Positions 2,178-18,100 of a stretch of DNA of 64,000 bases are shown in pieces. This DNA comes from Streptomyces globisporus (GTDB taxonomy: Bacteria > Actinomycetota > Actinomycetes > Streptomycetales > Streptomycetaceae), in assembly GCA_014649555.1 (NCBI GenBank), contig BMTG01000010.1:285144-349143 (forward strand), in the 5' to 3' direction. Position numbers and translations under genes: made by a program. The notes under the pieces are model-generated. The model did no database searches, was not told where the DNA came from, and saw only the letters and a list, made by a program, of their open reading frames with translations. Each line of letters starts with the position of its first letter. Positions within the stretch are counted from its first letter, which is position 1.

Positions 2178-3563
2178 GTGACACACCCGCCGAGCGGCGG
2201 CTCGCAGACGCTGCGTACGCCGGACCCGGTGTCCGGGACGGTCGGCGTGCCCGCACAGCGCACCACGTGGACCACGCAGGCGCAGCGCCTGCGTGCCGTG
2301 GCGACCACCGAGCCCGGCCGGCTCCAGATCATCGGGGCCGTCCTGGCCCTGCTGGTCGTCGCGTTCGGCGCGGTGACCACGCTGGAGATATCGCAGCGGG
2401 CCTCCTCGGCCGACGACGTGGTCAGCCGCAGCCAGCCGCTCAGCGCCGACGCGGCGGACATCTACCGCTTCCTGGCGGACGCGGACACCACGGCGGCCAG
2501 TGGGTTCCTCGCGGGGGCGCAGGAGCCCGAGGCGGTGCAGGAGCAGTATCGCAAGGACATCGAGGAGGCGGCCCGGCTGCTGGTGAAGGCGTCGGGGAGC
2601 ACCGACTCCGCCAGTGCGTCCAGCCGGGAGATAGCCACCCTCAACAAGCTGCTCCCGGTGTACACGGGCCTGATCGAGCGCGCCCGCGCCAACAACCGCC
2701 AGGGCCTGCCGCTGGGCGGCGCCTATCTCCGGTACGCCAACCAGAAGATGACCGGCGAGATGCTCCCCGCCGCCGAGCGGCTGTACGCGGCGGAGACGGG
2801 GCGGCTGGAGAGCGACTCGGCCGACGCCCGGCAGTGGCCGCTGTGGTCGATCGGCGCCGGGATCGTCGTGCTGGGCGCGCTGGGGTGGATGCAGCGGCGC
2901 ACCTACCGCCGGACGAACCGGGTGCTGAACCACGGGCTGCTGGCGGCGACGGCCGCCGCCTCGGTGGTGGTGCTCTGGCTGGCCGTGGGGCACACGGTGG
3001 CGCGCGCGGAGCTGCGGTCGGCGATGGTGCACGGGCAGGAGTCGCTGGATGTCCTCAACGACGCCCGGATCAACTCCCTGAAGGCACGTGCCAACGAGAA
3101 CCTCACCTTGGTGGCGCGGGGCGCGGTGCTGACGCCCGACGGCTCCGCCGACCAGTACGAGGCGGACTACGGCTCGGGGATGAAGGCGCTGAAGGCGCAG
3201 CTGGAGAAGGCCGAGCGGCTCGCGGACGACGACAGCGGGAGCGCGCCGGTGGCCACGGCGGCGGACGGCGTGGCGCAGTGGCAGGCGCGGCACCGGGAGG
3301 CCCGGGCCACGGACGACCGGGGCGACTACGACGGCGCGCTGGCGCAGATCATCGGGACGGAGAAATCCACCGGGCAGTCCTTCCAGCAGGTGGACGCCGC
3401 GCTGGAGAAGGCGCTCGCCCATGAGCAGGGCGAGTTCGCCTCGGCGGCGAAGGACGGGCGCGGGGCCCTGCGGGGCCTGCCGACCGGCGCCGCGGCCCTG
3501 GCGGTGCTGGGGGCCGTCGCCGTCATCGTCGGGGTCAACCGCAGGCTCTCGGAGTACCGGTGA
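2178..3563 (+). CDS. glnX: GlnX-like membrane sensor protein
   Basis: A 461-residue membrane protein with four predicted transmembrane segments near residues 51-69, 223-239, 253-271 and 437-455. Between TM1 and TM2, and between TM3 and TM4, lie two long helical, charged extracytoplasmic regions, like four-helix-bundle sensor domains. This topology, together with an adjacent glutamate-type binding protein and PknG, matches GlnX of the mycobacterial glnX-glnH-pknG locus, which relays amino-acid availability to PknG. There is no kinase, HAMP or other cytosolic output domain, so signalling presumably goes through neighbours. GTG 2178 is preceded by GAGGGGGAGG. The assignment rests on topology and synteny rather than motifs. 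Confidence 0.75.
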   Translation: MTHPPSGGSQTLRTPDPVSGTVGVPAQRTTWTTQAQRLRAVATTEPGRLQIIGAVLALLVVAFGAVTTLEISQRASSADDVVSRSQPLSADAADIYRFLADADTTAASGFLAGAQEPEAVQEQYRKDIEEAARLLVKASGSTDSASASSREIATLNKLLPVYTGLIERARANNRQGLPLGGAYLRYANQKMTGEMLPAAERLYAAETGRLESDSADARQWPLWSIGAGIVVLGALGWMQRRTYRRTNRVLNHGLLAATAAASVVVLWLAVGHTVARAELRSAMVHGQESLDVLNDARINSLKARANENLTLVARGAVLTPDGSADQYEADYGSGMKALKAQLEKAERLADDDSGSAPVATAADGVAQWQARHREARATDDRGDYDGALAQIIGTEKSTGQSFQQVDAALEKALAHEQGEFASAAKDGRGALRGLPTGAAALAVLGAVAVIVGVNRRLSEYR

Positions 3564-3574
3564 GAGGGGCAGCG

Positions 3575-4609
3575 ATGAGCAGGTCGAAGGACCGGCCCGG
3601 GCGCGGCGGCCTGCGCGGCTGGGGCGGGGTGACGGGGATGGCGGTGGCGTGCGCGGTCACCGCCGCGGTCACGCTGCTGCCGCTGGCCCACCACAACGGC
3701 GGATCGGCCGGGGCGGGCACCTCGGGCGGGGTGATGACGGCCGACCGGACCCGGGCCGAGGCGTGCACGGAGCCGGAGGCGAGCCTGCCCGCGTCCGGCT
3801 CCGACGGGCCGAACATCGACAGGATCAAGGAGCGCGGCAAGCTGATAGCGGGCGTCGACCAGAACAGCTTCCGCTGGGGCTACCGCAATCCGGAGAGCGG
3901 GGCTCTGGAGGGGTTCGACATCGATCTGGTGCGGGCCATCGCCGACGACCTCCTGGGCGACCCGGACGCGGTGATCTTCCGGGCCATCCCCACCAACCAG
4001 CGCATCGCCGCCCTGGAGAACGACCGGGTCGACGTCGTCGTGCGGACGATGACGATCAACTGCAAGCGGCTGGAGCAGGTCTCCTTCTCCACCGCCTACT
4101 TCCAGGCAGGACAGCAGGTGCTCGCCCCGAAGGAGTCGCCGATCACCGGCTACGACTCCTCGCTGAAGGGCAAGCGGGTCTGCTCGGCCGAGGGCTCGAC
4201 GGCGTACGAGGCGCTGGAGGAGAAGTCCTTCGGGGCGCTCTACAAGGACGACTTCGACGGCACAGAGCGCGACCCGGACCGGCTGACCGTGCCCAACCAG
4301 CTGGACTGCCTGGTGCGGCTCCAGCTCGGCGAGGTCGACGCGGTCGTCACGGACAACGCCCTGGCGGCCGGGCAGGCGGCGCAGGACCCGGCGGTGGAGC
4401 TCAAGGGGAAGGACCCGTTCACCACGGAGTACTACGGCGTCGCCACGAAGAAGGGCTCCGACGATCTGGTGGCCCGGGTCAACAAGGTCCTCGTCGACTA
4501 CCGGGCGGGCGGCAAGGACAGCGCCTGGATGCGGTCCTACGAGAAGTGGCTGGCGACCGGCCTGCCCGGGATCACCGCACCGCCCGCCCCCAAGTACCGC
4601 ACCGACTGA
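3575..4609 (+). CDS. glnH: GlnH-like amino-acid-binding protein
   Basis: A 344-residue periplasmic-binding-protein type 2 (SBP_bac_3) protein. After a cytosolic arginine-rich start there is one membrane segment at about residues 19-37, then the binding fold beginning IDRIKERGKLIAGVDQNSFR and continuing GFDIDLVRAIADDLLG, NQRIAALENDRVDVVVRTMT and LQLGEVDAVVTDNALAAG. I see no clear lipobox Cys, so it looks like a signal-anchored or secreted protein rather than the lipoprotein seen in mycobacteria. ATG 3575 is used because GAGAGGGG (about 3562-3569) precedes it; a GTG at 3560 overlaps the upstream stop. No transporter permease or ATPase is adjacent, which fits a sensing role over uptake. Confidence 0.82.
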   Translation: MSRSKDRPGRGGLRGWGGVTGMAVACAVTAAVTLLPLAHHNGGSAGAGTSGGVMTADRTRAEACTEPEASLPASGSDGPNIDRIKERGKLIAGVDQNSFRWGYRNPESGALEGFDIDLVRAIADDLLGDPDAVIFRAIPTNQRIAALENDRVDVVVRTMTINCKRLEQVSFSTAYFQAGQQVLAPKESPITGYDSSLKGKRVCSAEGSTAYEALEEKSFGALYKDDFDGTERDPDRLTVPNQLDCLVRLQLGEVDAVVTDNALAAGQAAQDPAVELKGKDPFTTEYYGVATKKGSDDLVARVNKVLVDYRAGGKDSAWMRSYEKWLATGLPGITAPPAPKYRTD

Positions 4610-4741
4610 CCCCGCGGCACCTGCGCCGCGGCACCGTGCACCACAGCAGCGAACCGACCGGAACGAGCGGGCCGGAGCAGACCGAAGCAGACCGATCCCG
4701 CCGGGCCCTCCGGCCCTGCGGGGAGAGCGGAGAGGTGATCG

Positions 4742-6094
4742 ATGGGCGTCGCGGGATCCTTCCCCAGCTTCGCGGGGAGGCCCCCCGGACCGGTCATGGA
4801 CCGGGAGGAGGCGGACCGTGCGCTGGCCCGGCTCGGGGCGGAGCACGAGGCCATCGAGACCTCGCTCCTCGCGCTCCAGGACCATGCCGGGCGCCGGCTC
4901 CTGGAGGGCGCCGAGCTGACCGGCGTCACCCGGGAGCGCTGGGCCTCGACCGAGCAGTCGATCACCCTCCTGTGGGGGTATTTCGACGCGTACGCGGGGG
5001 CGCTGTCCGAGGCCCGCGAGATCCGTGCGCGCCGCCGCCATCCGAACCGGGAGGACCTCTCCGCGCTGACCGAGCTGCTGCGCGGCGAGTCGGTCACCGT
5101 CGCCAATCCGGGTGCGGTGCCGCCGCCTTCGGCCGACGGTCCGGCCCGGCTCTCCGAGCGGTTCTCGCTCCAGGAGCTGGTCGCCCGGATGAACGAGCTG
5201 TACGCCAGGTCCCTGGACATGGTCGTCGCCTCCGACTCCGTCTGGTCGGCGCTGCCCGCCCGGATCGACCTGCTCGCGGCCGAGCTGCACCGGACGCGTT
5301 CGCTGGCGCACTCGGTGGGGGTGCGGCCCGGTGAGCACCCGGCCGGGGACGATCTGGCGGAGATCACCGAGGAGCTGACGACGCTGCGGGTACAGGTGAT
5401 CTCGGACCCGCTGGCGTTCTGGCTGCCGGGTCCCGGCAGCGCCGCGCCCGGCGGCGGCCGCCCCGACACCTCGCGCTACGACCGGGCCGCCCGCGCCCTG
5501 GAGGACGTACGGCGCGAGATCGAGGCGGTGCTCGCGGTCCGGCAGGACGCGGAGGCGCGCCTGGTGCGGCTGCGGGACGTGCTCTCACGGGCCGACCGCA
5601 CCCTGACGGAGGCGCGGGCGGCGCGCGGCGAGGTGCTGGCGAAGATCGCCGCATCCGAGGTGCCCGCGGTCAGCGGTCCGCCGACCGCTCTCCAGGAGCG
5701 TCTGGCGACCGCCTCCGACCACCGCCGGCACGCCCAGTGGCACCGGCTGTCGCCGCTGCTGGAGGCCTTGGAGCAGGAGGCCGAGGACGAACTGCTGCGT
5801 GCCCGTGAGTCGTTGACCTCGGTGACCGCGCCGCTGGCGGTCCGCGCCGAGCTGCGCGGCCGGCTCGACGCGTACAAGGCGAAGGTGGCCCGGCACGGCC
5901 TGGCGGAGGATCCGCTGCTGATCGAGCGGTACGACGCGGCGCGCCGCATGCTGTGGAGTGCGCCGTGCGATCTGCGGGTCGCCGAGCAGGCCGTCCTGCG
6001 TTACCAGCACGCGGTCGCGGAGTCGCTGCCGTCGCGCCGGCCCGACGGACCACAGGGTGGGCAAGGCGCGGGCGAACAGGGGGAATCACGATGA
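4742..6094 (+). CDS. Helical protein of unknown function in the PknG operon
   Basis: A 450-residue cytosolic protein with no domain I recognise. It is rich in Glu, Arg, Ala and Leu, with heptad-like stretches around residues 20-110, 240-330 and 340-430, so a largely alpha-helical or coiled-coil structure is likely. There is no signal peptide or membrane segment. ATG 4742 follows GGAGAGG (4729-4735); an internal in-frame ATG at 4796 has no such site. Its stop overlaps the PknG start as ATGA, so the two are translationally coupled. Its position between the membrane sensor genes and the kinase suggests an adaptor role, which is inference only. Confidence 0.7.
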   Translation: MGVAGSFPSFAGRPPGPVMDREEADRALARLGAEHEAIETSLLALQDHAGRRLLEGAELTGVTRERWASTEQSITLLWGYFDAYAGALSEAREIRARRRHPNREDLSALTELLRGESVTVANPGAVPPPSADGPARLSERFSLQELVARMNELYARSLDMVVASDSVWSALPARIDLLAAELHRTRSLAHSVGVRPGEHPAGDDLAEITEELTTLRVQVISDPLAFWLPGPGSAAPGGGRPDTSRYDRAARALEDVRREIEAVLAVRQDAEARLVRLRDVLSRADRTLTEARAARGEVLAKIAASEVPAVSGPPTALQERLATASDHRRHAQWHRLSPLLEALEQEAEDELLRARESLTSVTAPLAVRAELRGRLDAYKAKVARHGLAEDPLLIERYDAARRMLWSAPCDLRVAEQAVLRYQHAVAESLPSRRPDGPQGGQGAGEQGESR

Positions 6095-8952
6095 GTACGC
6101 AGTGCCAGCGCCCCGCGTGCGAGGGGACATACGAGGACATGGGCGGCGGTGAGCTGTACTGCGACACCTGCGGTCTGGCTCCGGTCGTCTCGCCGACGGG
6201 CATGGTCTCCTCGCCGCCGACCGGGATCGCCGGGGGCGGCCGGGCCAGCAGCCGGGACAGTTCCTCGCAGCGCTCCAGCTCCCGTGCCTCCGCCCGGTCC
6301 TCGTCCCGTTCGTCGACCTCGCGCCGCTCCGTCTCCGGCCGGCTGTCGCGTTCGCTGTCCGGGGCGTCGACCTCCCGTTCGGTCTCGGTGCGCTCCTCCG
6401 GCTCGACGTCGGCGGCCTCGGCCCGGGGGCGGCTCGGCGTCGGCCTGGTGGAGGTCCCGGACGTACCCCGGCCCGATCCGCGTACGGCGGTGATGGAGCG
6501 GGCGGAGGTGCCCGAGCGCAAGCGGTTCTGCTCCCGTTCGGACTGCGGGGCCCCGGTGGGCCGTTCGCGCGGTGAGCGGCCGGGCCGCACCGAGGGGTTC
6601 TGCACCAAGTGCGGCCACCCGTACTCCTTCGTGCCGAAGCTGACCGGCGGCGACATCGTGCACGGCCAGTACGAGGTCGTGGGCTGTCTGGCGCACGGCG
6701 GTCTCGGCTGGGTGTATCTCGCGGTGGACCGGGCCGTCTCCGACCGCTGGGTGGTCCTCAAGGGCCTGCTGGACACCGGGGACCAGGACGCGATGGCCGC
6801 CGCGATCTCCGAGCGCCGCTTCCTCGCCGAGATCGAGCACTCCAACATCGTGCGGATCTACAACTTCGTCGAGCACCTGGACCAGCGCACCGGCTCCCTC
6901 GACGGCTACATCGTCATGGAGTACGTCGGCGGCAAGGCCCTCAAGGAGATCGCCAACGAGCGCCGCACCCCGGCCGGGAAGCGTGACCCGCTGCCGGTGG
7001 AGCAGGCCTGCGCGTACGGGATCGAGGCCCTGGAGGCGCTCGGTCATCTGCACAGCCGCAATCTGCTCTACTGCGACTTCAAGGTCGACAACGCGATCCA
7101 GACCGAGGACCAGCTCAAGCTGATCGACATGGGCGCGGTGCGCCGGATGGACGACGAGGAGTCCGCGATCTACGGCACCGTCGGCTACCAGGCCCCCGAG
7201 GTGGCGGAGCTGGGCCCGTCGGTCGCCTCCGACCTGTACACGGTGGCCCGGACGCTGGCGGTCCTCACGTTCGACTTCCAGGGGTACACGAACGTCTTCG
7301 TGGACTCGCTGCCGGACCCGGACACCATCGAGGTGTTCCGCACCTACGAGTCGTTCTACCGGCTGCTGGTGCGGGCCACCGACCCGGACCCGGCCCGGCG
7401 GTTCGGCTCGGCCGCGGAGATGGCCGAGCAGCTGACGGGGGTGCTGCGGGAGGTCGTGGCCCTGCAGACCGGCCGGCCGCGCCCGGCCCTGTCGACGCTG
7501 TTCGGCGCGGAACTGCGCGTGGTCGACACGGAGTTGTTCGCCCCGCAGACGGACGACGTCTCGCAGCTGGGCGGCCGGGACACCGGCTCCGGGCGGGTCG
7601 GGCCGCTGGGCCGCCGCAAGGGCCGCGGTGGCCGGCCGGCCGGCATTCCCGCGCAGGGCGGCGGCGCGGGGCGGGTCCACGGCGGTGCGGCTCCGGTCGC
7701 GCCGGGGGCCGTGACGTCCGCGGTGGCCGGGGCGCTGCCGGTGGGCACGCAGCCGTCCGGCCCGGCGGGGGGTCACGCGGTGGGCGCCGCTCCCCTGGCC
7801 GTGCCGCCGACCCATGTCCGGGGCTCCGCGCCGGGCGGCGCGGACCCGCTCCCGTACGTTCCCCCGGCGCACGCGCCTGTTCCGGCGCCCCGGGCGCCCG
7901 ACCAGGCCCCGGGCGCCGGACCGTACGCCACCGGTCCCTCGGCCGGACCGTACGTCCAGACCGCCCCGGCCGGACCGTACGGCCCCGGCGGCGGTGTCCG
8001 GCTCGCCCCGTTCGACGCCCCGGCCACCGCGTTGGCGCTGCCGGTCCCCCGGGTCGACGCGATGGACCCGAACGCCGGTTTCCTCGCGGGACTGATGGCC
8101 TCCGCCCCGGCCGAGCTGATCACCGCCCTGCACACGGTCCCCGTCCCCTCGCTGGAGACCCGGCTGCGGGAGCTGCGGGCCCGGCTGGAGATGCGGGAGC
8201 CGGATGCGGCCGCGCGTGCGCTGACCACCCTGGAGGGTGAACACGCGGACGACTGGCGGGTCGTCTGGTATCGGGGGGTCACCTCGCTGGTGACCGGAGA
8301 CCACGAGACGGCGGCGCTCTCCTTCGACGCGGTCTATGACGCGTTCCCCGGCGAGATGGCGCCCAAGCTGGCGCTCGGGATCTGTGCGGAGGTGCTGGGC
8401 CAGCTGGACAACGCCGCCGAGTACTACCGGCTGGTGTGGGCGACCGATCCCGGGTTCGTCAGCGCCGCGTTCGGCCTGGCCCGGGTGCAGATCGCCGCCG
8501 GGGAGCGGGGTGCGGCGGTGAGCACTCTGGAGTCGGTGCCGGAGGCCTCGATCCACTACACGGCGGCACGGGTCGCCACCGTCCGGGCGCGGCTGCGCGA
8601 GCGCTCGCACCGGGAACCGCTGCTGACGGATCTGTCGGCCGCCGGGGTCCAGGTGACCGCCCTGGACGCCTTCGGTCTGGACCCGGTGCGGCACGAGCAG
8701 TTGTCGACGGAGGTACTGGGCAAGGCGCTCGACTGGGTACTCTCCGGTAGTCCCGGTGTCCCGGGGCCGGGTAGTCCGGACGCCGGTCCGCCGGATGCAC
8801 GGAAGCTGCTCGGCACCGAACTGACCGAGCGGGGGCTGCGGTTCGGGCTGGAGCGCTCGTACCGGATGCTCGCCCGGCTCGCTCAGCGGGGCGACGAGAG
8901 GATCGAACTGGTGGAGCGGGCCAACCGTTTCCGCCCCCGGACGTGGGTGTGA
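6091..8952 (+). CDS. pknG: PknG-type serine/threonine protein kinase
   Basis: A 953-residue soluble kinase, longer than mycobacterial PknG (about 750). Domains in order: N-terminal zinc ribbon (CQRPAC...CDTC, residues about 5-27); serine/arginine-rich segment (about 45-135); rubredoxin-like CSRSDC...CTKC (about 150-175); kinase domain (about 190-450); Gly/Pro/Ala-rich linker (about 490-650); TPR-like helical C-terminus (about 660-950). Lys224 is in VVLKGL. The catalytic loop is YCDFKVDN with Asp329, and the metal motif is DMG with Asp346, so it is a non-RD kinase as PknG is. PknG kinases act on FHA-domain regulators and control nitrogen and carbon metabolism. The start overlaps the upstream stop as ATGA. 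Confidence 0.93.
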   Translation: MSTQCQRPACEGTYEDMGGGELYCDTCGLAPVVSPTGMVSSPPTGIAGGGRASSRDSSSQRSSSRASARSSSRSSTSRRSVSGRLSRSLSGASTSRSVSVRSSGSTSAASARGRLGVGLVEVPDVPRPDPRTAVMERAEVPERKRFCSRSDCGAPVGRSRGERPGRTEGFCTKCGHPYSFVPKLTGGDIVHGQYEVVGCLAHGGLGWVYLAVDRAVSDRWVVLKGLLDTGDQDAMAAAISERRFLAEIEHSNIVRIYNFVEHLDQRTGSLDGYIVMEYVGGKALKEIANERRTPAGKRDPLPVEQACAYGIEALEALGHLHSRNLLYCDFKVDNAIQTEDQLKLIDMGAVRRMDDEESAIYGTVGYQAPEVAELGPSVASDLYTVARTLAVLTFDFQGYTNVFVDSLPDPDTIEVFRTYESFYRLLVRATDPDPARRFGSAAEMAEQLTGVLREVVALQTGRPRPALSTLFGAELRVVDTELFAPQTDDVSQLGGRDTGSGRVGPLGRRKGRGGRPAGIPAQGGGAGRVHGGAAPVAPGAVTSAVAGALPVGTQPSGPAGGHAVGAAPLAVPPTHVRGSAPGGADPLPYVPPAHAPVPAPRAPDQAPGAGPYATGPSAGPYVQTAPAGPYGPGGGVRLAPFDAPATALALPVPRVDAMDPNAGFLAGLMASAPAELITALHTVPVPSLETRLRELRARLEMREPDAAARALTTLEGEHADDWRVVWYRGVTSLVTGDHETAALSFDAVYDAFPGEMAPKLALGICAEVLGQLDNAAEYYRLVWATDPGFVSAAFGLARVQIAAGERGAAVSTLESVPEASIHYTAARVATVRARLRERSHREPLLTDLSAAGVQVTALDAFGLDPVRHEQLSTEVLGKALDWVLSGSPGVPGPGSPDAGPPDARKLLGTELTERGLRFGLERSYRMLARLAQRGDERIELVERANRFRPRTWV

Positions 8953-8954
8953 AG

Positions 8955-10448
8955 ATGTCTCAGAGCCACCAGCAGCCCGCCCTGTCGAAGTGCCCCGGCT
9001 GCGACGAACCGCCGGCCGCGGGCGACCTGTTCTGCGGGGCGTGCGGCTACGACCTCTCGGCCGTGCCCGCGCGCCCAGGTGACCGGCCCACGATGGCCAT
9101 CACCGTGCCCCCTGCCGCCCCGGAAGCGCCGGCTGCTCCGGTCGCGTCGGCCGGCCAGGCGGCGCCGGCAGCGTCGGGCGCGGAGGCCGTGCGGTGGCCC
9201 GCCGCCACGGAGACCGACAGCTCGGACGTGCCCGCGCCCGTGCACCGTCCGTCGGATCTGCCGGGGACGGACTCGGGCGGCAGGCCCCTGGCGGAGCAGG
9301 AACAGGTCCAGGGGCCGGGTGCGGCGGCCGGGCAGGGCGCGCCGGTCGGGCCCGGGCCGGAGCCCGTCGGCGGTCCTGAGCCCTCGGCCGTTCCGGTGCG
9401 CCACGACGACCGGGCGGAGCCGGGCGGTGCGGAGCACTCCGGTGACTTCGCGCTGGCCGCGCCCGATCCCCGTACGGCCGAGCACGCCGCGGCGGCCGCC
9501 GCTCCCACCGCCGGGGGGAAGGTCTGTGTGGCCTGCCGCTCCGGCCGGGTGGACCCCGACGGCTACTGCGAGAACTGCGGGCACGCCCAGCCCCGTGAGC
9601 GCGACCACATGGAGCAGGAGCTCGGCTCGGTGGCCGCGGTGAGCGACCGGGGCCTGCGCCATCACCGCAACGAGGACTCCTTCGCGGTGTCCTCGACCGC
9701 GCTGCCGGACGGTTCGCCCGCCGTCGTCGCGATCGTCTGCGACGGCGTCTCCTCGGCGAGCCGCCCCGACGAGGCGTCGGCCGCCGCCGCGAACGCCGCC
9801 AACGAGTCACTGCTGGCTTCCCTGCCGCGCGGTACGCATCCGCAGCAGGCGATGCACGAGGCGATCGTCGCCGCGTCCGAGGCGGTCAACGCCCTGGCGC
9901 AGGAGCCGGCCGGGGCGATGGAGCACGACGCGCACCGCCACCAGAACGCCCCGGCCTGCACCCTGGTCGGCGCGGTCATGGCGGGCGAGCTGCTGATCGT
10001 CGGCTGGGTCGGCGACAGCCGGGTCTACTGGGTGCCCGAGGACCGGAGCCGGCCGACCGCCCGGCTCACCGAGGACGACTCCTGGGCCGCGCAGATGGTG
10101 GCGGCCGGCCTGATGAACGAGGCGGAGGCGTACGCGGACGAGCGCGCCCACGCCATCACCGGCTGGCTCGGCGCCGACGCGTACGAACTGGAGCCGCACA
10201 CCGCCGCGTTCAAGCCGGACCGGCCGGGCCTGGTCGTCGTGTGCACGGACGGCCTGTGGAACTACGCCGAGTCCGCCGAGGAGATGGCCGCCGCGGTCCC
10301 GGCCGACGCCCAGGAACACCCGTTGCGCGGCGCCCAGGTGCTCGTCGGACACGCGCTCGACGGCGGGGGCCACGACAACGTAACAGTGGCACTTCTGCCG
10401 TTCGCCGTCCGGCCGCAAGGGGCAGGATCGGCCTGCGAAACCGTTTGA
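8955..10448 (+). CDS. PP2C-family protein phosphatase with zinc ribbons
   Basis: A 497-residue soluble protein. An N-terminal zinc ribbon (Cys13, 16, 27, 30) is followed by a Pro/Ala/Gly-rich linker, a second ribbon (CVAC...CENC, near residue 190) and a PPM/PP2C catalytic domain from about 218. Conserved motifs are RNEDS, IVCDGVSSA, GWVGDSRVYW, VVCTDGLWNY and GGHDNVTVALL, which supply the metal-binding aspartates. PP2C enzymes remove phosphate from Ser/Thr. Lying 2 bp after pknG, it is the obvious candidate to reverse PknG phosphorylation. ATG 8955 is chosen; the in-frame GTG at 8943 lies inside pknG. Confidence 0.92.
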   Translation: MSQSHQQPALSKCPGCDEPPAAGDLFCGACGYDLSAVPARPGDRPTMAITVPPAAPEAPAAPVASAGQAAPAASGAEAVRWPAATETDSSDVPAPVHRPSDLPGTDSGGRPLAEQEQVQGPGAAAGQGAPVGPGPEPVGGPEPSAVPVRHDDRAEPGGAEHSGDFALAAPDPRTAEHAAAAAAPTAGGKVCVACRSGRVDPDGYCENCGHAQPRERDHMEQELGSVAAVSDRGLRHHRNEDSFAVSSTALPDGSPAVVAIVCDGVSSASRPDEASAAAANAANESLLASLPRGTHPQQAMHEAIVAASEAVNALAQEPAGAMEHDAHRHQNAPACTLVGAVMAGELLIVGWVGDSRVYWVPEDRSRPTARLTEDDSWAAQMVAAGLMNEAEAYADERAHAITGWLGADAYELEPHTAAFKPDRPGLVVVCTDGLWNYAESAEEMAAAVPADAQEHPLRGAQVLVGHALDGGGHDNVTVALLPFAVRPQGAGSACETV

Positions 10449-10467
10449 GCCTCAAGGAGCCGACCAG

Positions 10468-11823
10468 ATGGCCAACTTCTCCAAGTCGCAGGTGCCGCAG
10501 TTCTCCGTCGAGGTCTACCAGAACGCGTTCCTGCCCGAGGGCGGCCGTGAGGTCAACGCGATCGTCACCGTGACCTCGACCGGCGGCGGCACCACCGGCG
10601 GGATACCGCTGGCGGACGCGGCACCCGCGTACGGGGCGGGGCAGGGACCCGGCGCGGCCGTGGTGCTGATGGTCGACTGCTCCGGCTCGATGGACTACCC
10701 GCCGACGAAGATGCGCAACGCGCGCGACGCGACGGCCGCGGCCATCGACACGCTGCGGGAGGGGACCCAATTCGCGGTGGTCGCCGGAACGCATGTGGCG
10801 AAGGACGTCTATCCGGGCAACGGGCGGCTCGCGATCGCCGACGCGCAGACGAAGGCGCAGGCCAAAGAGGCCCTGCGGAAGCTGAGCGCGGGCGGAGGCA
10901 CCGCGATCGGCACCTGGCTGCGGCTGGCGGACCGGCTGCTGAACTCCGCCGACGTCGCCATCCGGCACGGCATCCTGCTGACCGACGGCCGCAACGAGCA
11001 CGAGTCGCCCGAGGACCTGCGGGCGGCCCTGGACTCCTGCGCGGGCCGGTTCACCTGCGACGCCCGCGGGGTCGGCACCGACTGGGAGGTGAAGGAGGTC
11101 ACCGGCGTAGCCGCCGCCCTCCTCGGCACGGCCGACATCGTCGCCGACCCCTCGGGCCTGGCCGCGGACTTCACGCGGATGATGGAGAACGCCATGGGCA
11201 AGGAGGTCGCGGACGTCTCGCTGCGGCTCTGGACCCCGGTGGGCGTGGAGATCCGGTTCGTGAAGCAGGTCGCACCGACCGTCGCCGACCTGACCGCCCG
11301 GCGCACCGAGGCGAACGCCCGGGCCGGGGACTACCCGACCGGTTCCTGGGGCGACGAGTCCCGCGACTACCACGTGTGCGTCCTGGTGCCGGAGGCCGGG
11401 ATCGGCCAGGAGATGCTGGCGGCCCGGGTCTCGCTGATCCTGCCCGACCCCTCCGGCGCGGGCACGCCGCAGACGCTGTCGCAGGGGCTCGTACGGGCCG
11501 TGTGGACGGACGACATGGTGGCGTCGACCTCGATCAATCCGCAGGTCGCGCACTACACGGGTCAGGCGGAACTGGCACAAGTCATCCAGCAGGGGCTGGA
11601 CGCACGCAAGTCGGGCGACTTCGACGGCGCGACGGCGAAGCTGGGCCGTGCGGTGCAGCTGGCGTCGGCGTCCGGGAACCAGGACACCGCGAAGCTGCTT
11701 TCGAAGGTGGTCGACGTCGTCGATGCCGCGACAGGTACTGTGCGACTGAAGGCGAAGGTCGCGGAAGCGGACGAGATGACCCTCGAAACGCGCTCCACCA
11801 AGACCGTTCGCGTCAAGAAGTAG
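10468..11823 (+). CDS. Cytosolic von Willebrand factor A domain protein
   Basis: A 451-residue protein with a VWA domain from about residue 63. The metal-ion-dependent adhesion site is intact: DCSGSMD (Asp70, Ser72, Ser74), GGTAIG for the conserved Thr, and ILLTDGRNEH. There is no signal peptide or membrane segment, so it should act in the cytosol. The C-terminal third contains a helical region rich in Ala and Lys. ATG 10468 is preceded by AAGGAG with 9-nt spacing and follows the phosphatase gene by 19 bp. Cytosolic VWA proteins usually scaffold complexes; here a role in presenting kinase or phosphatase substrates is plausible but unproven. Confidence 0.85.
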   Translation: MANFSKSQVPQFSVEVYQNAFLPEGGREVNAIVTVTSTGGGTTGGIPLADAAPAYGAGQGPGAAVVLMVDCSGSMDYPPTKMRNARDATAAAIDTLREGTQFAVVAGTHVAKDVYPGNGRLAIADAQTKAQAKEALRKLSAGGGTAIGTWLRLADRLLNSADVAIRHGILLTDGRNEHESPEDLRAALDSCAGRFTCDARGVGTDWEVKEVTGVAAALLGTADIVADPSGLAADFTRMMENAMGKEVADVSLRLWTPVGVEIRFVKQVAPTVADLTARRTEANARAGDYPTGSWGDESRDYHVCVLVPEAGIGQEMLAARVSLILPDPSGAGTPQTLSQGLVRAVWTDDMVASTSINPQVAHYTGQAELAQVIQQGLDARKSGDFDGATAKLGRAVQLASASGNQDTAKLLSKVVDVVDAATGTVRLKAKVAEADEMTLETRSTKTVRVKK

Positions 11824-11909
11824 CACAAAGCGATCACCTCGCGGTCAACGCACCGCGACCGACAGCATGCGGCCTCCGGGGCCGGTAGAGGAGAGGGGGA
11901 AGCGCCGAC

Positions 11910-13358
11910 ATGCCGACCTGCCCGAACGGACACCAGTCGGGTTCCGAGGACTGGTGCGAGGTCTGCGGACACCGCATGACGACCGGCGGTGCGCCCGCGG
12001 GCGCGGTGCCCCCGCCGCCTCCTCCGCCGCCCGCGCCCGGTTACGGCTACCCGCAGCCGGGCTCCGGCACCGGTGGCGGACAGCCCACCATGCAGGCGGA
12101 GCTCTGCCCGCAGTGCCGTACGCCGCGTGAGGCGATGGCGCCGTTCTGCGAGGAATGCCGCTGGAACTTCCTCACCAACACGGCGACCTCCTACACACCG
12201 CTGGCCCCGCAGCACAGCACGCCCAGCGGCCCGCCGCCCGGCCTCAACCTGCCGCCCGGCTTCCAGGCACAGGGCCCCGGCGGTCAGCCCGGCCCCGGTG
12301 GTCCAGGCGGCCCTGGTGGCCCCGGTGGTCCCGGTGCGCAGGGCGGTCCGCCCGGCGCTCCGCAGCCGCGCGACCCGTTCGACTACCAGGGCTCGCGGCC
12401 CTCGCAGGTGAACCGCCCCGCCGAGCCGCTCACCCCTGAGCAGAACGGTCCCCAGGGGAACAGCGGTCCGCAGGGGAACGGCGGCCAGGGCGGTCCTCCG
12501 CAGTCGTTCCAGCAGGGGCCCCCGCCGTCCTCGTTCCAGCAGCAGGGCCCGCCGTCGGCGCGTTCGCCGTTCGAGCCGCAGCAATCCGCTCCGTCGCCGT
12601 TCGAACCGCAGCAGTCGGCTCCGTCGCCGTTCGAGCCGCAGCAGGCCTCGCCCTTCGCGCCGCCGCAGCAGCATCAGCAGTCGGCGCCGCCCGCGCCTCC
12701 GCAGTCGTCGGGGCACACCGGCGGGGACGACTGGATGCTGTCGCCGCCCTCCCAGGCGCAGCAGCCGCAGCCGCCCCAGCAGTTCCAGCAGCCGGGCCCC
12801 CACCAGGGCCAGGGCCAGCCGGGTCACCCGGGCCAGGGTCAGCGGCACGGGCAGGACCAGGGGTACGACCAGGGCCAGCAGCACGGGCAGGACCAGGGAT
12901 ACGACCAGGGCCAGCAGCACGGCGTGCCCGGCCAGGGCAGGCCGCAGCAGCCCGCCACCTGGACCGCCGTGATCGCCCCGGACCGTGCGTACTTCCTCGC
13001 GATGATGCAGCGCAGCGGCCCCGAGGCGACCGGGCTGAACCTGCCCGCGTACTCCCCGGAGCAGCGCCTTCCGCTCACCGGCAGCCAGGTCACCATCGGG
13101 CGTCGCCGGCAGAGCACCGGCGAGTCCCCGGACGTCGATCTGTCGGTGCCCCCGGAGGACCCGGGCGTCTCGCACCAGCACGCGGTGCTGGTGCAGCAGC
13201 CCGACGGCGGCTGGGCGGTCGTCGACCAGAACTCCACCAACGGCACCACGCTGAACGGCGCCGAGGAGCCGATCCAGCCCTACGTCCCCGTGCCGCTCCA
13301 GGACGGCGACCAGGTGCACGTCGGGGCCTGGACGACGATCACGGTCCGCCGGGACTGA
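11910..13358 (+). CDS. Zinc-ribbon and FHA domain protein
   Basis: A 482-residue protein. It has two N-terminal zinc ribbons (CPNGHQSGSEDWCEVCGH near residue 4 and CPQCRTPREAMAPFCEEC near 70), then about 270 residues of Pro/Gln/Gly-rich low complexity with two tandem repeats. A C-terminal FHA domain (about 385-480) has TIGRRRQSTGE, VSHQHAVL and NSTNGTTLNG, the conserved phosphothreonine-binding Arg, Ser, His and Asn positions. FHA domains read phosphothreonine, so this is the probable output or scaffold of the adjacent kinase and phosphatase. It differs from mycobacterial GarA in size and in its linker. ATG 11910 follows GGAGAGGGGGA. Confidence 0.9.
   Translation: MPTCPNGHQSGSEDWCEVCGHRMTTGGAPAGAVPPPPPPPPAPGYGYPQPGSGTGGGQPTMQAELCPQCRTPREAMAPFCEECRWNFLTNTATSYTPLAPQHSTPSGPPPGLNLPPGFQAQGPGGQPGPGGPGGPGGPGGPGAQGGPPGAPQPRDPFDYQGSRPSQVNRPAEPLTPEQNGPQGNSGPQGNGGQGGPPQSFQQGPPPSSFQQQGPPSARSPFEPQQSAPSPFEPQQSAPSPFEPQQASPFAPPQQHQQSAPPAPPQSSGHTGGDDWMLSPPSQAQQPQPPQQFQQPGPHQGQGQPGHPGQGQRHGQDQGYDQGQQHGQDQGYDQGQQHGVPGQGRPQQPATWTAVIAPDRAYFLAMMQRSGPEATGLNLPAYSPEQRLPLTGSQVTIGRRRQSTGESPDVDLSVPPEDPGVSHQHAVLVQQPDGGWAVVDQNSTNGTTLNGAEEPIQPYVPVPLQDGDQVHVGAWTTITVRRD
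12567..12645 (+). repeat. In-frame 30-bp repeat in FHA-protein linker
   Basis: About three copies of a 30-bp unit encoding PFEPQQSAPS, differing by silent changes. It adds to the disordered linker between the zinc ribbons and the FHA domain. Confidence 0.75.
12842..12925 (+). repeat. In-frame 42-bp tandem repeat in FHA-protein linker
   Basis: Two nearly identical 42-bp units encoding HGQDQGYDQGQQ-type sequence (14 residues each), differing by one base (GGG/GGA). The near identity implies a recent duplication. Confidence 0.8.
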
Positions 13359-13446: not shown

Positions 13447-13479
13447 GCTCGCCGCCGCCTTCACCGGCCGGCGGCGAGC
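13447..13479. terminator. Hairpin between convergent genes
   Basis: A perfect 11-bp stem, GCTCGCCGCCG (13447-13457) with CGGCGGCGAGC (13469-13479), and an 11-nt loop. It lies 89 bp after the FHA gene and includes the last codons of the oppositely oriented methyltransferase gene. A bidirectional terminator is likely. Confidence 0.5.
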
Positions 13480-14465
13480 GGCCAGGTGTAGGGGCCCTGC
13501 GGGTCGTCGAGCCAGGCCCACTGCCGCCCCTGGCCGACCGTGATGCCGTACCTCTCCCGCTGCGGACGCCCCTCGCGCTCCCAGAGGGAGAGGGCCTCGT
13601 GCGGATCGAGGGTGCCCGCGGTCAGCGTCAGGAGGAACCGGAACAGGTCGTCCCCGGCCACCCGACGCGGCAGTCCGCCGAGGTGCGGCAGCCCGTCGGC
13701 CGGCGGCAGCGCCCCGCGCAGGGGCACGAAGTACGCCGGGGTGTGCAGGAAGTGCCCTTCGGCGCGCGGTCCGTGCGCCGTCGCACGGACCTCCAGCAGG
13801 ACGAGACCGGTGGCGAGCGGCGCGAGGATCAACGCCCCCGGACGGCACTGTTCCGGCCAGCTCTGCGGTACGGAGGGCAGGGTGCAGGTCGCGATGATCC
13901 GGTCGTACGGGGCGCGCTCCGGGCAGCCCCGGGCCCCGTCACCGGTGATCACCTTCGGGTGGTACCCGGCCGCCGCGAGGTGGGCGCGGGCCGACTCCGT
14001 GATCTCCGGGTCCAGATCGACGCTGGTCACGGCGGGGTCGCCGAGCCGGTGGGCGAGGAGGGCCGCGTTGTAGCCGGGGCCGGTGCCGATCTCCAGGACC
14101 GTGTGTCCGTCCGCCACATCGAGGGCGTCGAGCATCAGGGCCATCAGGGACGGCTGGCTGGAGGACGAGACGAGTTCGCCGTCCTTGAGGCAGGTGGCCA
14201 GCGCCCCGTCCGCGTACACCCCGTGCAGCCAGCGTGAGCGTTGTCCGGGGTCGGCGCCTTCGGCCCCGAGGCGTTCGTAGCCCCCGATCCCGTGCACGTA
14301 GAAGAACGGCACGAACAGATGGCGGGGCACCTCGGCGAAGGCGGTGCGCCAGGCGGGATCGGTGAGTCCGCCCCGCGCGACGATCTCCCGCACGAGGGCG
14401 TCCCGCGCCGCGTCGGCCTCGGCGTCGGGGGCGGACGGGGAGGGGCCCTGCCGGTGTGCACCCAT
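13461..14465 (-). CDS. PCMT-like methyltransferase
   Basis: A 334-residue soluble class I SAM-dependent methyltransferase. The region before the SAM site, LFVPFFYVHGIGGY, resembles protein-L-isoaspartate O-methyltransferases, and motif I is HTVLEIGTGPGYNAALLAHR, followed by SVDLDPEITESAR and PYDRIIATCTLPSVPQSW. PCMT repairs isoaspartyl residues in aged proteins; paralogues in actinomycetes also modify peptides, so the substrate is uncertain. The C-terminal extension (last 100 residues or so) is beyond the catalytic core. ATG 14465 is preceded by GTGGAG; an upstream in-frame start would overlap the divergent globin gene. Confidence 0.8.
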   Translation of the reverse strand: MGAHRQGPSPSAPDAEADAARDALVREIVARGGLTDPAWRTAFAEVPRHLFVPFFYVHGIGGYERLGAEGADPGQRSRWLHGVYADGALATCLKDGELVSSSSQPSLMALMLDALDVADGHTVLEIGTGPGYNAALLAHRLGDPAVTSVDLDPEITESARAHLAAAGYHPKVITGDGARGCPERAPYDRIIATCTLPSVPQSWPEQCRPGALILAPLATGLVLLEVRATAHGPRAEGHFLHTPAYFVPLRGALPPADGLPHLGGLPRRVAGDDLFRFLLTLTAGTLDPHEALSLWEREGRPQRERYGITVGQGRQWAWLDDPQGPYTWPLAAGR

Positions 14466-14577
14466 GTCTCCACTGTCCTGTGCCGGAGGCGTGGGGGCGA
14501 GAGGGAGCGCTGCCCCGGTCCCGGACGTTGGTCCTAGGACCGCTGACCTCGGGCGGTACGTCTGCGACCATGGACGG

Positions 14578-14982
14578 GTGACTGAGATTCCGCGCGACAC
14601 GCTTCAGGAGCAGACCTTCTACGAGCAGGTCGGCGGCGAGGCGACCTTCCGGCGCCTGGTCCACCGCTTCTACGAGGGCGTGGCGGGCGACGAGCTGCTG
14701 CGGCCGATGTACCCGGAGGAGGATCTGGGCCCGGCCGAGGAGCGGTTCGCGCTGTTCCTGATGCAGTACTGGGGCGGCCCGCGCACCTACAGCGACCACC
14801 GGGGCCACCCGCGGCTGCGGATGCGGCACGCGCCGTTCCGGGTGGACCGCGCGGCCCATGACGCCTGGCTCGCCCATATGCGGGTCGCGCTGGACGAGCT
14901 GGGGCTCGCGCCGGAGCACGAGCGGCAGCTGTGGGACTACCTGACGTACGCCGCGGCCTCGATGGTCAACACCGCGGACTGA
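14578..14982 (+). CDS. glbO: Group II truncated haemoglobin (trHbO)
   Basis: A 134-residue 2-on-2 globin. Visible features are YEQVGGEATFRRLVHRFYEG, MYPEED, LFLMQYWGGPRTYSD with the conserved Trp-Gly, and RMRHAPF containing the proximal His. Group II proteins bind O2 and other diatomic ligands and take part in redox or nitric oxide chemistry near the membrane. GTG 14578 gives the usual family length and lacks a strong ribosome-binding site. It diverges from the PCMT-like gene across 112 bp and is followed by about 200 bp before the ABC transporter genes. Confidence 0.93.
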   Translation: MTEIPRDTLQEQTFYEQVGGEATFRRLVHRFYEGVAGDELLRPMYPEEDLGPAEERFALFLMQYWGGPRTYSDHRGHPRLRMRHAPFRVDRAAHDAWLAHMRVALDELGLAPEHERQLWDYLTYAAASMVNTAD

Positions 14983-15181: not shown

Positions 15182-18100
15182 GTGGTGTTTCGGGGGCTGG
15201 GGGATCAGGTGACGGGTTTCGTCCTTCTGCGGGTGCGGGCTCATCGCCTGTTGCTCTCCGCGGCCGTCCTCGCCGTCCTGCTGACCACCTCCGTCCTGGC
15301 CGCGCTCACCGCGTTCTCGGGTTCCGTCGGGGACGCGGCCCTGCGCCATACGCTCACGCACCGGTCGGCCGCGTCCGCCGCTCTCGTCGTGTCCGCGTCG
15401 GTCGACCACGAACAGCGCGCGGAGGCCGACGAGGCCGTCCGCAAGGCCTCCCGCGACGCCTTCGACGGGCTGCCCGTGACCGTGGGGAAACTGGAGAGTT
15501 CGGGGTCGTACGCGCTGCCGCGGAGCCTCCAGGACCCGGCCGCCCGGCGCGGCGATCCGGACCTCACCCACTTCGCCGCCCTCGACCGCGACCGGGTGCG
15601 GATCACGGAGGGCAGGGCGCCCGCGGCCTCCGACGGCACCGGCCCCGTACAGGTCGCGCTGCCCGTCGTCGCCGCCGAGGCGCTGAAGCTGAAGCCGGGC
15701 GCGCGGCTCACCGTCACCGACCGGCTGCGGAACGACAAGAAGCAGCGGGTCCTGGTCACCGGTGTCTACGAGGCGGCCGACCGGGCCGACCCGTACTGGC
15801 AGTTGGACCCGCTCGGCGGGCGCGGAGTGCGCAAGCTCGCCTTCACGACGTACGGCCCGCTGCTCACCGACCCCTCGGTCCTCGCCTCGGGCGCGCTCGG
15901 CGGCGGGCAGACGTCCTGGCTGGCGGCCGCCGACTTCTCCACGCTGACCACCGGCTCCATGGCGGGGCTGCGGGACGCGTCGGCGGGCGCCCCGAAGGCG
16001 CTGGCGGCCGCACCGGTGTTCAAGGCCGGTGTCACCGCGCGGATGTCGCTGCCGACCGTGCTCGACCAGCTCGACCGGGCACTGCTGGTCTCCCGTTCCA
16101 CGCTGATGATCGTCGCGGTGCAGCTGGTGCTGCTCGCCGCGTACGCCCTGCTGCTCGTGGCCCGGCTGCTGAACAGCGAGCGGGACGGCGAGCGGGAACT
16201 GCTGCGGGCCCGGGGCGGTTCCCGTGGCCGGATCACCTCGTTCGCCGCGATCGAGGCGCTGCTGCTGGCCGTGCCCGCCGCCGTGGTCGCCCCGCTGCTC
16301 GCGGGGCCGCTGACCGGACTGCTGGCCGAGCGCAGCGCCCTGTCCCGGATCGGTCTCGACGTCGGCGCGGCCTCGACCGGGACCGTGTGGCTGGTCTCCG
16401 CGGCCGTCGCGCTGGCCTGCGCCCTGGCGGTGGTGGCCCCGTCGCTGACGGCCGGGGCGGGCGGGCGCCGGACCCGGGCCGCTTCGCTGCCGGGGCCGGT
16501 GCGGGCGGGCGCGGACCTCGGGCTGCTGCTGATCGCGGGGGTGGCGTACTGGCAGCTGGACCGGCAGGCCGGCGGCGGGGCGCTCACCGGCGACCGGGCG
16601 GGCAACCTCGGGATCGACCCCCTGCTGGTCACCGCCCCGGCCCTCGCGCTGCTCGCCGGAACGGTCCTCACGCTGCGGCTGCTGCCGCCCGCCGCGAGGC
16701 TCGCGGAACGGCGTGCGGCCAAGGGCCGGGGGCTGCCCGCGGCCCTGGCGGGCTGGCAGTTCAGCCGCCGACCGCTGCGCGGCGCGGGTCCGGTGCTGCT
16801 GCTGGTCCTGTCGGTCGCGATGGGCATGCTGGCGATCGGCCAGAGTGCATCGTGGAACCGTTCGCAGTCCGACCAGGCCGACTTCGGCTCCGGCGCCTCG
16901 GTCCGGCTGGTCGGCGGGCACGGCAGCGGTCCGGCGTCGGCCGGGATCTACAGCGGCCTGGACGGGGTGCGGCAGGCGGCCCCCGCCCACCGGACGACGG
17001 TGGAGGCCTCCGGGGGGCGCACGGCCGAGATCCTCGCCCTGGACACCGCCCACGCGGACGAGGCGATGCTGATGCGCTCCGACCTCGCCGGCGGAAGCCC
17101 GCGCCGGGTGTTCGACACCATCGCCCCGCAGCCGGCCCCGCGCCCCGGGCTCGTCCTCCCGAAGGACAGCACCCGGGTCACGATGGACCTGCGGATCACC
17201 ACGGTGTCGCCGAAGCGCTCCGAGGCCGCCCCCGGCACATCGCCGCCGGTGGTCACCGTGCTCCTGGAGGACCGTTACGGCCTCCCCTACCGGTTCCTGG
17301 CCGGCCCCGTGCCCGTGGACGGCCGCCCGGTCCCGGTGTCGTTCGCGGTGTCGGCGGCGGGCGGTCTGGCCGTGACCGGTATCGAGGTGGACGACGAACC
17401 GCCGTACGGCCGGGCGGAGAAGCGCCGGGTCACGGTGAGCGACGTCCGCGTGGTCACGGGATCCGGCGACGACAAAGCGTCGGGCTCCGGATCCCCCGAA
17501 GGATCTGAAGGCTCCACAGGCTCCGAGGACTCCGCAGGCCAGGGACGCCCGGAGCGCCCGGTACCGGTCTCCGGATCAGTGCGCTGGGACGCGTCCATGG
17601 CGCTCACCGTGAGCGGTGACAGCCGGCCGGGCGCGACGCCGGTGCGCAACGGGACTTCGGGCCTGCCGGACTTCACGTACGCCACCGGGGTGAGCAGCGA
17701 GGACACCTGGGAGCCGACCACCAGCACCCTGCGGATCACCGCCGCCCGGCCGAAGGCCGCGCCGCTCAAGGCGGTCGCGACGGACGCCTATCTGAAGAGC
17801 ACGAACGCGAAGCTCGGGGACGAGATCGACCTCACCCTGGCCGGGAACACCGTCCGGGTGACCCTGGCGGACGTGGTGCGCCGGCTGCCGACCACCGGGG
17901 CCGCCGAGCTGTCCGGCGCCGCGGACCCGGCGCAGTACGGCGGCGCGCTGCTGCTGGACCTCAAGGCCGTCACCGAGCTCCTGGCCGGGCGGACGACGGC
18001 CACCATCGAGGCGACCGAGTGGTGGCTGAGCGCCGACCCCGGCGACGCCCCGAAGGTCGCCGCCGCCCTGCGCGCGCTGCCGGACACCGACCCGGCCCAG

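Follow-up and report, generated by a model that had tools for sequence, protein, structure and literature searches.

An extended pknG operon of Streptomyces globisporus with phosphatase, VWA and FHA genes and a possible likeness to the archaeal ArnA-ArnB pair

A stretch of 64,000 nucleotides from the genome of Streptomyces globisporus (8.2 Mb in 58 contigs), called the window below and corresponding to G000:C10:285144-349143, carries at positions 2178-13358 of the + strand seven co-directional open reading frames (ORFs), glnX, glnH, hel, pknG, pp2c, vwa and fha, which place the membrane sensor GlnX, the binding protein GlnH and the Ser/Thr kinase PknG in one operon with an all-alpha protein, a PP2C phosphatase, a VWA protein and an FHA protein. 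The gene set and the wide conservation of this pknG neighborhood are solid, and the linkage of the genes makes it likely that the PP2C, VWA and FHA proteins work together with PknG. The structural model of the VWA protein has an ArnB-type fold, and our leading interpretation, to which we give slightly less than an even chance, is that this is a full-length PknG system in which PknG and PP2C drive a VWA-FHA switch, resembling that of the archaeal proteins ArnA and ArnB (ArnAB), as a second output besides GarA.

The initial annotation of this DNA had called the seven co-directional genes in this order, and in both respects it was right; all ORFs were found, their limits were confirmed and families were assigned to all but hel, and the family matches support its description of the locus as a GlnX-GlnH-PknG sensor-kinase set with added phosphatase, VWA and FHA proteins. 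The neighborhood was compared in 160 pknG regions, 80 from a survey of the class (the window included) and 80 from named relatives. The class survey comprises 80 of the 84 places above the Pfam cut-off (79 plus the window; G158, G167, G131 and G140 were left out), and the named relatives are the best 80 of 592 ranked against one query and thus an uneven sample. Neighbors were called from domain seeds with removal of overlaps, shadow ORFs being abundant in the G+C-rich pknG region, and PknG itself was called in 158 of the 160 regions, L056 and L057 being without it. No two loci are identical over the C-terminal 400 residues of PknG; four pairs are 98-99% alike. In 103 of the 158 loci pknG has genes for PP2C, VWA and FHA proteins next to it on its own strand, which excludes a chance arrangement; the annotation had named the lack of a conserved neighborhood in related genomes as a result that would speak against it, and this is clearly not the case. 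Full sets are found in Streptomycetaceae, Nocardioidaceae, Kribbellaceae, Kineosporiaceae, Cellulomonadaceae, Promicromonosporaceae, Intrasporangiaceae, Microbacteriaceae, Propionibacteriaceae, Beutenbergiaceae, Micromonosporaceae, Acidimicrobiia and several further families, and in one Dormibacterota metagenome-assembled genome (MAG). The remaining 55 loci include 18 of the main type that have enough flanking DNA and none of the three genes (13 in f4, which from tree and scores appears to be a Mycobacteriaceae-like family, three in Pseudonocardiaceae, and L068 and L166) and four partial sets. Another 14 are cut by a contig end, 11 of them with some of the genes and three with none, and the last 19 are paralogues or copies of low score, of which seven have some of the genes and 12 have none. 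The phosphatase and FHA genes are not peculiar to this locus; they lie beside pknG in most of the examined loci outside f4 and the Pseudonocardiaceae.

The content of the operon is more constant than its order, since in family f15 and the Dormibacterota MAG the genes run (hel-)pknG-pp2c-vwa-fha-glnX-glnH with the content largely kept, some f15 loci being without some parts. The median junction is -4 bp for glnX/glnH (n=124), pknG/pp2c (118), hel/pknG (104) and vwa/fha (104), although the spacing script chooses whichever start codon is closest to the preceding stop and is biased to small gaps. In the window, glnX and glnH overlap by 4 bp, as do hel and pknG, and the gaps are 132 bp between glnH and hel, 2 bp between pknG and pp2c, 19 bp between pp2c and vwa, and 86 bp between vwa and fha; the spacing of 0-2 bp or overlap first described thus holds around hel-pknG-pp2c. 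Among 196 genomes of the class, PknG_TPR is above its cut-off in 65 and VWA_3_C is found in 46, 42 of which are PknG genomes. A profile of hel, built from pknG-adjacent proteins of which some came from genomes later counted, also matches 46, and 45 of these have PknG, the single other genome being borderline (E 6.6e-4). The hel and VWA_3_C figures are counts of genomes, and a few of the matches lie away from pknG; neither was found in the 16 f4 genomes with PknG. A phylum-wide search with PF16919 gave 25 of 296 genomes and added little beyond the class search.

PknG (6091-8952) has an N-terminal Cys motif, a Ser/Arg-rich linker, and rubredoxin (PF16919), Pkinase (PF00069) and C-terminal PknG_TPR (PF16918, residues 639-951) domains, which score 108, 86 and 292 bits, all above cut-off, and it matches Protein Data Bank (PDB) entry 2pzi with E 1.3e-162; the ATG at 6091 is a likelier start than that of the longer ORF from 5953. 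The phosphatase (8955-10448, with an alternative GTG start at 8943) matches PF13672 with 50 bits (E 3.4e-13), is below the cut-off of NF033484 (104.7 against 230 bits), and carries two N-terminal CxxC-CxxC zinc-ribbon-like motifs. The residues that we take to be catalytic or binding in the PknG, PP2C, VWA and FHA alignments are preserved across the 103 full loci: in PknG the Lys of VLK in 98%, the catalytic Asp in 100% and the Asp of DxG in 100%, in PP2C the metal-binding Asp/Gly residues in 98-100%, in the VWA protein the MIDAS (DxSxS, T, D; intact in the window) in 97-98%, and in the FHA domain the phosphothreonine (pThr)-binding Arg and Ser in 100% and Asn in 99%. These four are not decayed genes.

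The VWA protein (10468-11823) consists of a VWA domain, a beta-sandwich, C-terminal helices and a Ser/Thr-rich C-terminal tail, and matches VWA_3_C (PF18571) with 81 bits (E 4.6e-23). Its AlphaFold2 (AF2) model has a mean pLDDT of 88.3, and the top Foldseek match of the model is 4fx5, a close relative from Catenulispora acidiphila (E 4e-62, 53% identity, TM 0.90/0.95). Next in the fold ranking are 8s05, the ArnAB complex, with its chains A and B (E 4e-20 and 4e-19; TM 0.61/0.71 and 0.62/0.72, at an rmsd of about 6), and 5a8j, a paralogue of ArnB; the remaining matches listed, among them inter-alpha-inhibitor, Sec23/24 and integrins, rank lower. Passages of PMC6509490 had already pointed out that 4FX5 resembles the archaeal vWA2, and PMC12852372 did so again. 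The FHA protein (11910-13358) has N-terminal zinc-ribbon-like Cys motifs, with three CxxC in the window protein, then a long Gln/Pro-rich linker and a C-terminal FHA domain (PF00498, 59 bits, E 6.7e-16). At the C terminus of the VWA protein the pattern [DE]TxSTKT[TV]R, applied strictly, is present in 85 of 114 homologues; the Thr residues clustered in it recall the ETTS site of GarA and are candidates for phosphorylation.

As described in passages of PMC6509490, PMC12852372 and PMC7472852, ArnA is a zinc-finger FHA protein, the finger of which holds ArnB in the unphosphorylated state, and phosphorylated Thr residues of the C-terminal helical bundle of ArnB bind the FHA domain of ArnA; ArnB is phosphorylated by ArnC, the phosphorylation is reversed by PP2A, and the tight ArnAB complex loosens in starvation. 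In both the Sulfolobus system, which has the kinases ArnC and ArnD, and the operon, a VWA protein that has a beta-sandwich and helices at its C terminus stands next to an FHA protein of the zinc-finger kind; a Hanks kinase and a phosphatase for Ser/Thr accompany the pair, and the context is one of nutrients. The operon also supplies a predicted nutrient sensor. The operon differs in being bacterial, in having PknG, with an outside sensor, as kinase and PP2C rather than PP2A as phosphatase, and in the type of finger; its FHA protein has ribbon-like Cys pairs that are predicted to bind zinc. Word searches of PMC6509490 and PMC12852372 gave no occurrence of PknG.

By analogy with these proteins we hypothesize an ArnAB-like switch together with docking through zinc ribbons. 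GlnH would bind its ligand, an amino acid or a related compound, on the outer side of the membrane, GlnX would relay the signal across it, and PknG, with its TPR domain and N-terminal ribbon, would become active; the signaling steps, like the ligand, the phosphosites, the zinc binding and the docking, are what we infer. One output of PknG would be GarA, encoded elsewhere and gating 2-oxoglutarate/glutamate metabolism as is known in relatives, and the other would be a local phospho-switch that the VWA protein forms with the zinc-ribbon FHA protein and that works in the manner of ArnB and ArnA. PknG would phosphorylate the Thr-rich C terminus of the VWA protein, the FHA domain would clamp on, and the PP2C of the operon would reverse the phosphorylation. 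The product of hel (4742-6094) may be a scaffold or adaptor. Its AF2 model consists of long helices with a mean pLDDT of 91.2, and it belongs to no Pfam or NCBIfam family above any cut-off, a Pfam search of 32 hel homologues likewise giving no families. The zinc ribbons of PknG, PP2C, FHA and GarA may act as docking tags.

GlnX (2178-3563; 461 aa) matches NF058618 with 483.6 bits (E 5.6e-145, cut-off 250) and falls below the narrower equivalog NF041460 (190 vs 780 bits); a crude hydropathy scan gives three membrane segments, and four are described for GlnX of Corynebacterium glutamicum in a passage of PMC9769921. GlnH (3560-4609) is a family 3 solute-binding protein (PF00497, SBP_bac_3, 88.8 bits, E 3.3e-25), the nearest solved structure being that of mycobacterial GlnH (6h1u, E 2.4e-47). 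When the pocket residues numbered in a passage of PMC6069109 are transferred through the alignment with 6h1u, R147, T162, R169 and D250 are kept in the window protein, S164 is replaced by Thr and W232 by Gln. The residues that would grip a ligand by its amino and carboxyl groups are thus retained or replaced conservatively, so that the amino-acid sensing that had been suggested for this locus is plausible, and the ligand is likely to be amino-acid-like. The side-chain pocket, in contrast, differs from the Asp/Glu-specific one: Trp232 of the mycobacterial protein contacts the ligand side chain (PMC6069109), and in view of its replacement by Gln we reject a simple carry-over of Asp/Glu specificity. 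Position 232 is Trp in 17 of 127 GlnH proteins (12 of 12 in f4, three of three in Pseudonocardiaceae, and two others) and Gln in 17 of 17 from f1, the family of the window's genus; His, Asp, Tyr and others are found elsewhere. A simple lipobox pattern is absent from all 17 f1 GlnH proteins and present in 10 of 12 from f4, and the N terminus of the window GlnH (3560-3700) has a hydrophobic segment with no such pattern, unlike the lipoprotein GlnH of relatives.

The relation of PknG to GarA/OdhI is established in relatives (passages of PMC6069109 and PMC8546545), and the window's genome encodes one clear homologue on another contig (G000:C15:6218-6550) that scores 190.9 bits, just below the model cut-off of 200, the next FHA match in the genome having 53.9 bits. 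This GarA bears a zinc ribbon and, in SETTSTISI, the ETTS motif. The possibility that the operon FHA protein is itself GarA is rejected, as it scores 25 bits against the 200 of the OdhI model, has no ETTS motif, and GarA is encoded elsewhere. The initial annotation had proposed a self-contained nutrient relay, of which the set of sensor, kinase, phosphatase and FHA protein stands and the self-containment does not. GarA might alternatively be the sole real output, with PP2C resetting PknG and GarA, and with the FHA and VWA proteins serving as membrane scaffolds on which the kinase and GarA dock, so that there would be no ArnAB-like switch; such an arrangement fits the presence of GarA in this genome, its established place in the PknG pathway of relatives, and the ribbon-like Cys motifs found alike on PknG, PP2C, FHA and GarA. 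We regard it as unlikely, although it survives best among the alternatives, because a pThr reader with conserved binding residues and an ArnB-type fold suggest a regulated phospho-complex and not passive scaffolds. In addition, 55 of the 56 genomes tested encode GarA, among them 14 of the 15 that are without PknG, so that GarA is not a specific partner of the operon; other kinases may serve GarA in the PknG-less genomes.

The ribbons on PknG and GarA have related distributions. The N-terminal zinc-ribbon-like motif of PknG is identified by pattern, in a region that has no Pfam match. In a first strict count it was present in 98 of 103 full loci and in four of 33 loci with none of PP2C, VWA and FHA; among the 88 rows of the PknG tree described below it is present in 68, comprising 62 of 64 with a VWA neighbor and six of 24 without one, and L095, a locus with a VWA neighbor in which the ribbon was not scored, has it by eye. 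GarA ribbons were read in 50 of the 55 GarA-positive genomes and occur in 25 of the 26 genomes whose pknG has a PP2C gene next to it (a class that includes G168 and G176, which are without VWA, and G033, at a contig end), in none of 11 three-gene genomes, in the one genome with PknG but none of PP2C, VWA and FHA, and in seven of 12 PknG-less genomes. The three-gene loci are without the ribbon on both PknG and GarA, the one exception being the ribbon-bearing PknG of Kibdelosporangium (L194). This pattern hints at a common docking function of the two ribbons. A strict coupling of the PknG ribbon to the VWA gene is rejected, as ribbons occur in the VWA-less loci L061, L063, L066, L068, L166 and L194.

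Several points weigh against an ArnAB-like switch and its docking tags. The sequence profile of the VWA protein does not single out ArnB: 8s05 comes fifth (28.2 bits, E 7.5e-6, confined to the VWA domain) and is outranked by 4fx5 and by three VWA proteins from animals, a weak and unspecific similarity, so that the likeness to ArnB rests on the fold. The strict tail pattern is missed by 29 of the 114 VWA homologues, several of which have near variants of it, which the paralogues do not, and the conservation of the tail may be structural, since the AF2 model of this region is fairly confident (pLDDT 83). The finger of ArnA is of the RanBP2 type according to a passage of PMC12852372. Both ribbon assignments in the operon partners are below cut-off (DZR on FHA, 16.4 against 27.3 bits; Zn_ribbon_3 on PP2C, 20.8 against 27), such zinc ribbons are common in bacteria, and the fold search with the hel model gave no PDB match at E<=0.001. 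Six of the 68 ribbon-bearing PknGs have no neighboring VWA gene and, together with the GarA ribbons of PknG-less genomes, indicate that ribbons are not tied to the VWA module; an ancestry-aware test of VWA against ribbon, with seven independent pairs of which 3.5 were concordant and none discordant, was not significant (median p 0.25). The predicted specificity residue of GlnH departs from the mycobacterial pocket.

The position of the three-gene operon was examined with a quick tree of 88 PknGs, which was midpoint-rooted beside distant Streptomyces paralogues and in which several deep forks have support below 95. The window PknG is in a clade with those of Streptomyces (L181, L199) that has an SH-aLRT of 100, with a Kitasatospora clade adjacent. 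The three-gene loci of f4 and Pseudonocardiaceae are nested among full-operon lineages, and the fewest changes on the tree are six for PP2C, 10 for VWA and nine for FHA. Such counts do not separate gain from loss, but loss is favored because absence is scattered inside full lineages whereas presence extends to very distant ones. The textbook operon glnX-glnH-pknG is therefore best read as a trio that has probably been reduced from the longer form. A broader proposition, that most actinobacterial PknG systems hold an ArnAB-type switch in which kinase, phosphatase, reader and GarA are docked by their ribbons on a VWA hub, and that the mycobacterial and corynebacterial pathway is a stripped remnant without hub, reader, dedicated phosphatase and ribbons, seems to us doubtful on present information. 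In the same tree L129, a record under the name Streptomyces sp. SID13031, falls together with Kribbella soli (SH-aLRT 100), and it is probably misnamed or misassigned.

That glnX-glnH-pknG and pp2c-vwa-fha are two units, neighbors by descent that share transcription and belong to separate pathways, is improbable. The halves are separable, f4 and Pseudonocardiaceae keeping only the first, and in the Streptomyces paralogue loci L112, L113 and L114 a second PknG-like kinase lies beside a VWA gene with no PP2C or FHA gene. However, 42 of the 46 VWA_3_C genomes have PknG, rearranged operons keep most parts together, and even the paralogous kinase of L112-L114 retains its VWA neighbor. The C terminus of the VWA protein of L112 has a zinc-ribbon match of 25.2 bits, just below the cut-off of 27, and the tails of those of L113 and L114 contain CxxC. 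Other additional copies are without PP2C, VWA and FHA neighbors: a further distant PknG-like kinase in the window's genus (L058, L059, L098 and L099) has no rubredoxin or ribbon Cys pattern in the scanned stretch and only very weak GlnX-like matches nearby (24-31 bits), and a second pknG of family f16 (L081, L083, L087, L092, L097 and L117) has glnH and glnX on the opposite strand.

About equally improbable is a stress module of the TerY-P or type VI kind, which would respond to envelope stress or toxic anions and in which the GlnH sensor would be secondary. The type VI threonine phosphorylation pathway (PpkA, PppA and Fha1) resembles the window in joining a membrane sensor to kinase, PP2C, FHA and VWA domains, but its sensor is of another family. 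The VWA domain sits on PpkA (PMC1262709, in a passage), whereas in the window it is a separate protein, and the window FHA protein is far below the cut-off of the TagH model TIGR03354 (38.1 against 120.25 bits), so that membership of the type VI pathway is rejected; type VI secretion genes and TagQRST were absent from the five window neighbors scanned, no genome-wide search being made. TerY-P triads, according to passages of PMC11090510 and PMC4978471, unite a VWA protein, a PP2C and a Ser/Thr kinase with a zinc ribbon, the first source placing them in one locus. In the window, however, the ribbon motif of the kinase is N-terminal and its C terminus is a TPR domain, a GlnH/GlnX sensor is present, and the VWA protein has no TerY-named Pfam or NCBIfam match (whether either library includes such a model was unchecked); TerY-P membership is likewise rejected. 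Clustering of flanking ORFs did trace two genes, telA (toxic anion resistance) and one for an AAA+ ATPase with AAA_lid_6, that precede glnX in the same orientation at 49 of 158 loci; at 48 of these the AAA+ stop is 54-201 bp ahead of the GlnX domain. However, neither gene was found at the 24 f1 loci, a number that includes paralogue loci, and no TelA was found in the window's genome. Loci with telA and AAA+ (e.g. L120:2956-6510) form a nine-gene locus in Cellulomonadaceae, Nocardioidaceae, Kribbellaceae, Kineosporiaceae and Intrasporangiaceae, among others. PADLOC gave matches to the kinase domain only and no family for hel, PP2C, VWA or FHA, and an anti-phage system is rejected.

In its surroundings the operon is preceded by a BadF-type ATPase gene (898-1866), upstream of glnX, and followed downstream of fha by a convergent PCMT-type methyltransferase gene on the - strand (13461-14600), found in the neighbor scan; a bacterial globin gene on the + strand also lies at the operon end, within 13461-14982. 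The five window neighbors scanned include no defense or DNA-processing genes. A scan of the window for sigma-70 promoters and terminators gave no promoter-like sites, a result of little weight at a G+C content above 70%. A 99-nt tRNA-Gly predicted by ARAGORN at 18201-18299 lies inside an FtsX-like permease gene (15182-18577) and is probably a false call.

Compared with the mycobacterial and corynebacterial system, the window has the same GlnX sensor, family 3 binding protein and PknG in the same order, a PknG with rubredoxin, kinase and TPR domains, and a GarA with ETTS that is encoded elsewhere; it differs in the four extra genes hel, pp2c, vwa and fha, in an extra ribbon-like motif on PknG and GarA, and in a GlnH without the lipobox pattern and the pocket Trp. 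PMC6069109, in a passage citing STRING, describes the three-gene arrangement as conserved in Actinomycetales; its text contains neither "phosphatase" nor "vWA", although its Figure 2B may show neighbors. Among the open-licence papers listed by the searches, judged by titles, abstract openings and passages (among them passages of PMC8546545, PMC9769921, PMC12321487 and PMC1262709), none was found that treats PP2C, VWA or FHA genes next to pknG, or ArnAB together with PknG, so that the longer pknG operon and a link between PknG and ArnAB were not met there. The work on PknG that was met concerns mycobacteria and corynebacteria with their three-gene operon, which in the present survey is not the usual form among the pknG loci examined. 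The longer operon offers candidate answers to the questions of which phosphatase opposes PknG, what role the kinase has besides GarA, and what purpose the VWA protein of structure 4FX5 serves. If the likeness to ArnAB is true, an archaeal nutrient switch would have a bacterial counterpart that is tied to a defined sensor and could be tested in Streptomyces.

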